A DNA stretch of 44,775 nucleotides from Bacteroidaceae bacterium (GTDB lineage: Bacteria; Bacteroidota; Bacteroidia; Bacteroidales; Bacteroidaceae). The translations under genes were made by a program, and so were the position numbers. Under the pieces are notes generated by a model, which worked only from the letters and a program-made list of their open reading frames with translations, searched no databases and was not told the origin of the DNA. The first letter of the stretch is position 1. Every line of letters starts with the position of its first letter. The stretch covers positions 1 through 44,775 of the forward strand of contig JAKSIQ010000011.1 in NCBI GenBank assembly GCA_024398755.1. The letters are read 5' to 3'. This document shows, piece by piece, positions 1 to 3,757 of this stretch.

Positions 1-325
1 GAATACGTTTTTCCGCGTGCTACCCCCTACGATAGGGAAGGAATGCGCCCTACAGTGCCACTTTCGTCCCTATCCTGCGCCCAAGAATACGTTTTTCCGC
101 GTGCTACCCCCTACGATAGGGAAGGAATGCGCCCTACAGTGCCACTTTCGTCCCTATCCTGCGCCCAAGAATACGTTTTTCCGCGTGCTACCCCCTACGA
201 TAGGGAAGGAATGCGCCCTACAGCACCACTTTCGTCCCTATCCCCACTACTCCGCCGCGATATCGCCATTTTACTATGTACGATAGGGAAGGAATGCGCC
301 CCACAGTGCCACTTTCGTCCCTATC
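1..325. repeat. Left hairpin-repeat array (four copies, about 84 bp period)
   Basis: Four copies of a 44 bp element lie at 31-74, 115-158, 199-242 and 282-325, spaced 84, 84 and 83 bp. Each begins GATAGGGA and ends TCCCTATC, so each can fold into a hairpin whose stem extends inward (AGGAA against TTTCG, imperfect) around a loop of about 18 nt. The spacer is the same between copies 1, 2 and 3 (GAATACGTTTTTCCGCG...), but between copies 3 and 4 it is replaced by sequence like that of the right array (CGCGATATCGCCATTT). The array runs into the window edge and may continue. Open frames across it exist because 84 is a multiple of 3, and they are not believed to be genes. Confidence 0.93.
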
Positions 326-373
326 CTTACTGCGTCATTCAATAAATACATCATCCGATGAAAAGTTTTGTGA

Positions 374-389
374 AAATCATTAATGATTT
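374..389. repeat. 16 bp perfect palindrome upstream of the RAYT gene
   Basis: AAATCATTAATGATTT reads the same on both strands and lies 63 bp before the transposase start, in the 127 bp gap after the left array. It could be a dimeric repressor site or a processing site. No function can be assigned from sequence. No TAnnTTTG box was found in this gap. Confidence 0.5.
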
Positions 390-452
390 GTGGATTAGCA
401 TTGTACATTCGCCCTGGAAAACTATTAATCATGAAATGAAATACTTGAAACC

Positions 453-1448
453 ATGAATGATTTTTATCACATTTGTCTTACCGCACATAGTGAAGTGTTG
501 CTGCGCTGTCCAGAAGATTATCGGGATATCACAAATCTGGTTGCATTGTCTGCCTACAGATCCGGTGTTCAAATATTAGTTGACGCCATCATGTCAAATC
601 ATATGCACTTCATAGTACTATCGGAAAACCCGGGCAAGTTTGCTCTATCGTTGCGAATTTCCATTACAAAACACTTCAACTCCAAATACTTTAGGAACAA
701 AAGATTGTTTGACAGGAAAGTCTTCATTTGTAAATTGGAAGGTGCACGTCACATAATTATGGCTATAAACTATGTACTAAAAAATCCTGTACATCATGGG
801 CAGGCAAGCACACCTTATTCATACCCTTGCAGCACCGCTAATTTCCTGTTTGCAAAAGACAGAGGTGTTCCTGAGCATATACAGGAAAACTATATAACCT
901 ATAACAACAGAAGAAAACAGTCTGGTATATACTGTCCAAAGAACGCAAAGATTCCTAACGATATCAGCATCGATCCAAATGGTATGATGTATCGGTCGTC
1001 TTTTGAGGAAATACGGTTGGTCGAATCATTCTACATGACTCCTAATTCGTTCATTTACAATATGAACCGACGCACATCCGATGAGTGGATAAAGGAGCAG
1101 GAACAAGATCAGGTCAAATCGGCTCCAATTACGCTCGAACTGATTGAAAGGGGAGTAAAATTCAATACAGTCAACGAAATGCTGAAGAACGAAAATGCGA
1201 CAAGGACAGGCCGTCAGTTGAAGAGTGATACTGAAGTGTGCCAACTGATTGACAATGAAATACGTGGTCGATACAAAGCTGATTCAATCTATAAAATCGG
1301 CATAAAACAAAGATTGCAAATTGCCATGTCTTTGGTAAAGGAACCGGACATATCATTGCAAATTGCATCGCGTGCTGCGGTCGTGCCTTTCCAACTTCTG
1401 CAGAATGAATACGATTCGTATTATGGAGTGCGGAAAAACCGGTTCTGA
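453..1448 (+). CDS. REP-associated tyrosine transposase (RAYT, Y1 HUH family)
   Basis: This 331-residue protein resembles the IS200-like Y1 transposase superfamily in its first 115 residues. The HUH metal-binding motif is seen as NHMHF (His50, His52). The candidate nucleophile is Tyr107 in INYVLKNP, the usual context in REP-associated transposases. Such enzymes nick and join single-stranded DNA at hairpins. Residues about 120-331 exceed a minimal IS200 enzyme (about 150 residues) and end in a helical, possibly helix-turn-helix part. The gene sits between two arrays of palindromic repeats, the expected arrangement for a RAYT with its REP elements. No IS-type terminal structure was seen around it. 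The start at 453 is the first ATG in frame. The family call is firm; activity is inferred from intact motifs. Confidence 0.88.
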   Translation: MNDFYHICLTAHSEVLLRCPEDYRDITNLVALSAYRSGVQILVDAIMSNHMHFIVLSENPGKFALSLRISITKHFNSKYFRNKRLFDRKVFICKLEGARHIIMAINYVLKNPVHHGQASTPYSYPCSTANFLFAKDRGVPEHIQENYITYNNRRKQSGIYCPKNAKIPNDISIDPNGMMYRSSFEEIRLVESFYMTPNSFIYNMNRRTSDEWIKEQEQDQVKSAPITLELIERGVKFNTVNEMLKNENATRTGRQLKSDTEVCQLIDNEIRGRYKADSIYKIGIKQRLQIAMSLVKEPDISLQIASRAAVVPFQLLQNEYDSYYGVRKNRF

Positions 1449-1451
1449 AGT

Positions 1452-1742
1452 TCACAATATTATAGGGACCGATACTACCCTGTCGGGCCAAAACGGATAA
1501 TAAACCAATTCGTGTGGAATGCCGCCTGTTCCGTCCCAACAGACGCGTTGCAATTTGCTGAAATCGGGTGCCCCGAAATCAAAAGAGCGTCCGAATAGCA
1601 TAATGCAACCGTTATCCGGATTGATGTCCCACAATCCGCCACCGTGACAATCATTCTGCCCATATTCAAGCAAATCCAGGTGACGGCTCACAAGGCCGAA
1701 TTTGAGAACGCCATTGTTCGTTATGATAAACTTTCTGCACAT
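1452..1742 (-). CDS. Small uncharacterised protein in the RAYT island
   Basis: This 96-residue protein is read on the minus strand, with its stop 3 bp from the RAYT stop (convergent). It is rich in Gly, Asp and aromatic residues (for example LKFG, CHGGGLWD, LFGRSFDFGAPDF and YYPFWPD), with no signal peptide or membrane segment. Its composition is protein-like, unlike the repeat-driven frames nearby. It resembles small hypothetical proteins I recall from Bacteroides and Prevotella, but I cannot name a family. A TAnnTTTG box lies at 1775-1782 on the same strand, 33 bp before the start. Function is unknown, and a link to the transposase is only positional. Confidence 0.6.
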   Translation of the reverse strand: MCRKFIITNNGVLKFGLVSRHLDLLEYGQNDCHGGGLWDINPDNGCIMLFGRSFDFGAPDFSKLQRVCWDGTGGIPHELVYYPFWPDRVVSVPIIL

Positions 1743-1774
1743 TGGTATGGATAGTAAATGGTAGGGAAGAGTGC

Positions 1775-1782
1775 CAAAAATA
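1775..1782 (-). promoter_or_regulatory. Putative -7 element for the small minus-strand gene
   Basis: Read on the minus strand this is TATTTTTG, matching the Bacteroidetes -7 consensus TAnnTTTG. It lies 33 bp upstream of the ATG at 1742. No convincing -33 TTTG is seen, since that place is taken by the first hairpin of the right array. Confidence 0.4.
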
Positions 1783-1807
1783 CGCTATTCTCGCCGATTA
1801 CATAAAT

Positions 1808-2104
1808 GGATAGGGATGGAATCGCGCCCACAGCACCACTTTCGTCCCTATCCTCACTACTCCGCCCGCGATATCGCCATTTCCCCATACAGGATAGGGA
1901 TGGAATCGCGCCCACAGTGCCACTTTCGTCCCTATCCTCACTGCTCCGCCCGCGATATCGCCATTTCCCCATACAGGATAGGGATGGAATCGCGCCCACA
2001 GTGCCACTTTCGTCCCTATCCTCACTGCTCCGCCCGCGATATCGCCATTTCCCCATACAGGATAGGGATGGAATCGCGCCCACAGTGCCACTTTCGTCCC
2101 TATC
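1808..2104. repeat. Right hairpin-repeat array (four copies, exactly 84 bp period)
   Basis: Hairpin elements start at 1808, 1892, 1976 and 2060. A full copy is 46 bp, with GGATAGGGATGGAA pairing TTTCGTCCCTATCC (14 bp, two G-T pairs) around an 18 nt loop. Spacers are near identical and contain the palindrome GCGATATCGC (first at 1868-1877). The elements are related to those of the left array and in the same orientation, but differ in stem, loop and spacer. Copy 1 has loop variant CAGCACCAC; copies 2-4 have CAGTGCCAC. Wobble pairs make the plus-strand hairpin more stable than the minus-strand one. Frames spanning the array on both strands are rejected as genes. Confidence 0.94.

Positions 2105-2338: not shown

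Positions 2339-3757
<1,419 letters not shown>

Follow-up and report, generated by a model that had tools for sequence, protein, structure and literature searches.

A RAYT-like gene between arrays of evenly spaced hairpins: a likely cognate enzyme-repeat pair in a Bacteroidales genome

Introduction

The stretch of DNA analyzed here (the window) comprises 44,775 nt, positions 1 to 44,775 of contig JAKSIQ010000011.1 in assembly GCA_024398755.1. It comes from a Bacteroidaceae bacterium, likely a gut bacterium, of the genus that we infer to be Candidatus Colenecus, formerly UBA1179 (named in the part of PMC8957277 available). The window opens with a gene resembling REP-associated tyrosine transposases (RAYT; REP, repetitive extragenic palindrome), which lies between two arrays of a 44-nt hairpin. 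Two questions arise: whether the enzyme and the hairpins belong together, and what keeps the hairpins so evenly spaced. Our reading, to which we give about three chances in four, is that the gene lies between arrays of its likely cognate hairpin, and that the enzyme would bind and cut this hairpin, spreading and maintaining an 84-nt unit. Sequence and its comparison supply six features on which this reading stands: arrays on both sides of the gene, copies dispersed in the genome, one orientation within arrays, a fixed step, a hairpin that changes with the enzyme clade, and a second enzyme-hairpin pair in the same genome.

The hairpin arrays

The first-pass annotation had described four hairpins on each side of the gene, all in one orientation. 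The coordinates bear this out:

1..30, + strand: linker, 3' part, clipped by the contig end (sequence)
31..74, + strand: hairpin 1 of the left array (pattern match)
75..114, + strand: linker, 40 nt (linker comparison)
115..158, + strand: hairpin 2 of the left array (pattern match)
159..198, + strand: linker, 40 nt (linker comparison)
199..242, + strand: hairpin 3 of the left array (pattern match)
243..281, + strand: linker, 39 nt, differing sequence type (linker comparison)
282..325, + strand: hairpin 4 of the left array (pattern match)
453..1448, + strand: RAYT-like Y1/HUH protein, 331 aa, with H50, H52 and Y107; C-terminal extension at about residues 140-331
1809..1852, + strand: hairpin 1 of the right array (pattern match)
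1853..1892, + strand: linker, 40 nt (linker comparison)
1893..1936, + strand: hairpin 2 of the right array (pattern match)
1937..1976, + strand: linker, 40 nt (linker comparison)
1977..2020, + strand: hairpin 3 of the right array (pattern match)
2021..2060, + strand: linker, 40 nt (linker comparison)
2061..2104, + strand: hairpin 4 of the right array (pattern match)

The element is a palindrome of the form GATAGGGA-28 nt-TCCCTATC. The pattern GATAGGGA-N20-36-TCCCTATC has eight matches in the window, against a mean of 0.00 in 100 shuffles, and successive hairpins are 84, 84 and 83 bp apart on the left and 84, 84 and 84 bp on the right. The count of four is exact for the right array and a minimum for the left, because window base 1 is base 1 of the contig and falls within a linker. 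The element of 44-46 bp first proposed holds as a 44-nt hairpin whose foot extends outward, with an A two bases before it in 78 of 79 copies and a T two bases after it in 75. The repeating unit is larger, as it includes the 39-40-nt linker that joins the hairpins.

A search of the source genome (1.97 Mb in 86 contigs, 87% complete) returned 36 exact copies, 28 of them away from the RAYT gene, and no copy of a reversed control pattern. The dispersal expected of a REPtron-like island is thus found. With up to two arm mismatches allowed, there are 38 copies in 14 arrays. Since 13 of these arrays sit at contig ends, with no open reading frame (ORF) intervening, the copy numbers are low estimates; the repeats themselves seem to break the assembly at these 13 places. 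Head-to-tail order is found in all ten multi-copy arrays of this genome, in five of six in its nearest relative (G017; the sixth begins with a degenerate copy) and in the single array of another relative (G029). Across the three genomes the step between neighbors is 84 in 48 of 51 cases and 83 in the other three. Linkers are 80% identical within arrays vs. 49% between them.

Pairing in the stem was counted over the 63 distinct sequences among 79 copies, the eight outer pairs being the search condition. Positions 9/36 are unpaired in 49 of the 63 and positions 14/31 in all 63. Between them, 10/35 is paired or G-T in 46, 11/34 is paired or G-T in 60, 12/33 is paired in all and 13/32 in 60. A sister element with TTAGGGA arms differs from GATAGGGA by an A-T pair swapped for T-A, and one of its outer pairs is C-G in 54 of 80 copies and G-C in 11. 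Such pairing-keeping changes would fit a hairpin, and a dyad read by a protein dimer would look identical. Single-stranded DNA folds of nine strands, from seven elements, were more stable than the means of their shuffles (z -1.7 to -4.6). The hairpins are not canonical REPs of the GTAG type: GT[AG]G occurs within 6 nt of the 5' hairpin foot in 0 of 79 copies on the + strand and in 12 of 79 on the - strand.

The enzyme

The RAYT frame (453-1448) is open and carries H50-M-H52 and Y107, as the annotation had stated, with YVLKNP at the Tyr motif. The predicted fold of the protein is that of an HUH/Y1 single-strand nickase. In structural comparison it matches the REP-associated transposase 4er8 best, with scores clearly above those of the IS200/IS605 enzymes. 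A profile scan of the genomes of 84,980 species gave 119 loci, of which 80 were taken; together with loci from the relatives' genomes these made 122, of which 101 are distinct. All 80 scan loci are labeled as Bacteroidia or a group within it, and many of the labels name samples of horse, cattle, deer or other herbivores. Among 393 genomes sampled evenly from the order, a full-length family match was found in the source genome only, along with nine partial ones. The positions of H50, H52 and Y107 are kept in 100 of the 101 distinct loci. The family has [NT]HxH and Y-L-[RK]-N motifs, no W (one locus of 101 has a W in the columns of residues 80-100) and a median length of 309 aa; the C-terminal extension of the window protein spans about 190 residues. 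One clade (L091-L100) is mostly longer (about 375 aa) and has a longer stretch from HxH to Tyr.

Enzyme-hairpin pairs

The source genome holds one copy of the RAYT gene and one relative, on contig C33 (4132-5553), 37% identical to the window protein over the N-terminal part. The relative is flanked by four GCCAAAC…GTTTGGC hairpins, two per side, at 82 and 83 bp, and this hairpin has no exact match elsewhere in the genome. One genome thus has two RAYT-hairpin pairs, and their hairpins are unrelated.

Among the 101 loci, the same palindrome stands on both sides of the RAYT gene in 40, vs. none of 505 shuffles. The two flanks resemble each other in 53 of 98 RAYT loci vs. 12 of 267 other genes, a comparison set that includes genes adjoining the same arrays. 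The hairpin arms follow RAYT clades in a quick tree (53 rows, with a long-branch warning in its other parts): xxTAGGGA; GGACGCT or GGACACTA; GCCG[CT]GTT; AGGTG; and GCCAA. Distances between enzymes correlate with those between hairpins (rho 0.21; none of 2000 permutations reached it), chiefly where the pairs are close. Each enzyme therefore likely recognizes its own repeats, and the cognate pair first suggested for this locus gains from the change of arms with the enzyme clade.

Closer relatives were covered by 61 genomes: the source genome, 36 of its genus and 24 others of the order. Hairpins of the GATAGGGA type occur in three, the source genome (36), G017 (40) and G029 (7). The RAYT is present in two of these, none being detected in G029 (79% complete). 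RAYTs of at least 50% identity occur in ten genomes of the genus, the source included; eight of the ten are without GATAGGGA and carry TTAGGGA instead, in 6-87 copies. The TTAGGGA element is found in 18 of the 61 genomes, and no genome carries both. Reversed-pattern controls reach 1-4 in some genomes, so that TTAGGGA counts of 1-4 are near control noise. Within the genus, such hairpins occur in all 10 genomes that have a clade-A RAYT and in 11 of the 27 that have none (Fisher p 0.0017).

The linkers have features of their own. A motif, AAWACGYNNNNNCGCGGG, occurs in 28 of the 61 genomes, all 28 in the same genus, and also in RAYT flanks with other hairpin arms (9 of 101 loci). In the TTAGGGA arrays of loci L072 and L074, part of the loop, ACCTGCGTT, is complementary to AACGCAGGT in the linker, giving a second, interleaved palindrome.

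Spacing of the hairpins

Arms were typed by hand at 33 loci, 26 of which yielded neighboring hairpins. The step is 82-84 bp in 24 of the 26, in four arm families; the exceptions are L160, at 93 bp, and L084, which belongs to a fifth family and has steps of 57, 72 and 73. Linkers are 38-41 nt long beside hairpins of 43-46 nt, and 31 nt long beside hairpins of 51-53 nt (42 in L160). Hairpin and linker lengths are correlated at r = -0.99 over 24 loci, and none of 5000 linker permutations gave an equally tight sum; because there are only four families, the independent length changes may be few, perhaps two or three.

A scan blind to the arms found neighbor pairs in 29 of all 101 loci. Counting each distinct step once per enzyme cluster left 15 values, several from one pair: 52, 63, 72 (four), 82-84 (five), 93, 95, 126 and 140. 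Apart from 140, every value is at most 1.6 bp off an integer multiple of 10.45 bp. At 10.5 bp the Rayleigh R of the 15 is 0.79, reached by 2 of 20,000 random sets, and nine other tandem periods of RAYT flanks, picked by hand, show no phasing (R 0.03-0.07). The spacing is likely one of helical phasing, short of proof. Two distant RAYT relatives, L102 and L103, have hairpin steps of 63 and 52 bp, about six and five helical turns.

Neighboring genes

Two further genes belong to the locus:

1452..1742, - strand: 96-aa ORF, convergent with RAYT
2339..3757, + strand: ahcY (adenosylhomocysteinase), context gene downstream of the right array

The 96-aa ORF has a counterpart (68% identical) beside the RAYT of G017 only, among the loci then compared. 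It gave a weak match to Ocnus, below cut-off, and no NCBIfam match.

In 16 of 30 ahcY loci, rpsO lies 84-272 bp upstream (two of the 16 in part), which leaves no room for a RAYT; in the other 14 no rpsO was found within the available stretch. The ahcY of G029 is 99% identical to that of the window. Two contigs of that genome break off in repeat sequence, the one with rpsO in a hairpin and linker and the one with ahcY in linker sequence of the array. G017 has hairpins after rpsO, at the end of a contig; its ahcY is 4.9 kb away. In the source genome the rpsO contig stops 175 bp past rpsO, with no hairpin there. The simple reading is that the island sits between rpsO and ahcY in the window's lineage; the assemblies leave it unjoined. 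The RAYT absent from the G029 assembly may lie in this gap.

Proposed mechanism and alternatives

How might such an enzyme make such arrays? The hairpin would form on single-stranded DNA, probably at the replication fork, and H50/H52 with Y107 would nick near its foot. Cuts at the same place in neighboring units could release or join whole units, which would account for the head-to-tail order, for the fixed step and for the likeness of units in one array. The near-constant step of 82-84 bp despite varying hairpin and linker lengths would reflect a geometric limit, most simply that hairpins share one face of the duplex, where pairs of enzymes bind them, perhaps through the helical C-terminal domain.

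Several results weigh against the pairing of enzyme and hairpin or against the spacing rule. Binding, nicking and mobility are inferred. Matches to curated models are below cut-off (Y1_Tnp of Pfam, 14.4 of 23 bits; NCBIfam NF047646, 30.9 of 80). The flank-likeness test, at a score of 40, is failed by 45 of 98 loci (three of the 101 being outside the test), and 61 of 101 lack a palindrome on both sides, including the whole L091-L100 clade. G017, the nearest relative, passes neither test, only because about 970 bp separate its gene from the right array. The relation of enzyme to hairpin is weak past a distance of 0.35 (rho 0.08). Occurrence of the element in many genomes without RAYT, named beforehand as evidence to the contrary, was not seen for GATAGGGA and was partly seen for TTAGGGA, since 10 of its 18 genomes, all of the genus, have it (1-19 copies) without a clade-A RAYT. 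As to spacing, the freely fitted period is 10.95, not 10.5 (R 0.85; 1 of 5000 random sets). The seven distinct spacing classes alone fail the 5% level, 1324 of 20,000 random sets (6.6%) being as good; with a free period 173 of 5000 are as good, and with 140 dropped post hoc 20 of 20,000. Local tandem duplication, finally, could equally yield similar units within arrays.

This last point leads to an account that we hold unlikely, though worth serious weight: the enzyme disperses single hairpins only, arrays grow by ordinary slippage during replication or by recombination, and the step is a legacy of founder doublets, not a product of selection. Local duplication predicts units more alike within an array than between arrays, as is found, and a step would be inherited trivially inside one family; four families with different hairpins and linkers, however, all keep 82-84. 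Somewhat less probable, and tentative, is an array builder with a ruler, in which the HUH domain reads the hairpin of its lineage on single-stranded DNA and the helical C-terminal domain holds neighboring hairpins on one duplex face. Units would then be added in whole turns (about 5, 6, 7, 8 or 9) whatever the sequence or length of the hairpin, and the system would read the single-stranded and the double-stranded form of the same repeat.

The arrays might instead be sites for a host protein (gyrase or a nucleoid protein would be candidates), or terminators or mRNA ends, with the RAYT as a passenger. Such roles are published for REPs (in the available part of PMC8266576), and a protein that binds duplex DNA would be well served by spacing in helical-repeat multiples. 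We consider this improbable, as the arms track the RAYT clade and not simply the host, and a single genome with two RAYTs has a different hairpin family for each. An IS200/IS605-type insertion sequence with hairpins as its ends shares the Y1/HUH fold and is very improbable: there is one gene copy, the hairpins far outnumber it, and 4er8 scores well above IS608 and ISDra2. Since one copy was found in an 87%-complete genome, we take this most likely to be a domesticated gene and not an insertion sequence. A CRISPR-like array lacking Cas genes, suggested by palindromic repeats and regular spacer length, can practically be set aside, since the linkers are themselves repeats, alike within arrays and related between them, rather than unrelated spacers, and there is no PADLOC match (two proteins tested) and no Rfam match in 1-2400.

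Relation to known systems

REPINs are hairpin doublets linked to a RAYT. The present arrays resemble them in this link and differ in that doublets and arrays are mostly direct, although at C33 the two hairpins on a side look inverted by eye. In E. coli-type REPtrons (group 2, with 4er8), the GTAG and stem mismatches steer TnpAREP, and REPs often occur in inverted pairs, as bacterial interspersed mosaic elements (available part of PMC8266576). The Y1/HUH fold, dispersed flanking palindromes and kept stem mismatches are shared with these; the GTAG foot and W motif are missing here, the C-terminal extension is added, and head-to-tail arrays at a fixed step replace the inverted pairs.

The annotation called RAYT/REP systems little described in this group. 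For Bacteroidetes, a survey, in the part available, lists RAYTs flanked by 'atypical secondary structures' (TnpAY1 subclass 2.6, RAYT group 5; PMC6006769), though the window RAYT is without subclass 2.6 motifs. The phylum and the flanking non-canonical hairpins with copies elsewhere are alike. Subclass 2.6, however, has NH[LIV]H, WQ and YIH[QN]NP with a median length of 179 aa (PMC6006769), whereas the present family has neither W nor WQ, Y-L-[RK]-N in place of YIH[QN]NP, and the longer median given above. A Y1 core with a long C-terminal part is shared with subclasses 2.1 and 2.3 (helix-turn-helix-like in 2.1). In the survey text available, the subclasses that have a long C-terminal domain are given no link to REPs (PMC6006769); here the long C terminus and flanking hairpins, features found apart in that main survey, are joined. 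No published account of these arrays was found in a literature search at the level of titles and the start of abstracts, with most subscription papers outside it.

The system behaves like a RAYT/REP pair, and the spacing rule is the new point. It bears on two general questions, how a RAYT and its REPs come to recognize each other and what sets the spacing of REPs. A narrow Bacteroidales set now offers dozens of diverged enzyme-hairpin pairs, of which one genome holds two, and a single geometric rule that is mostly obeyed. Such pairs, side by side, make tests of specificity swap, orthogonality and spacing direct.
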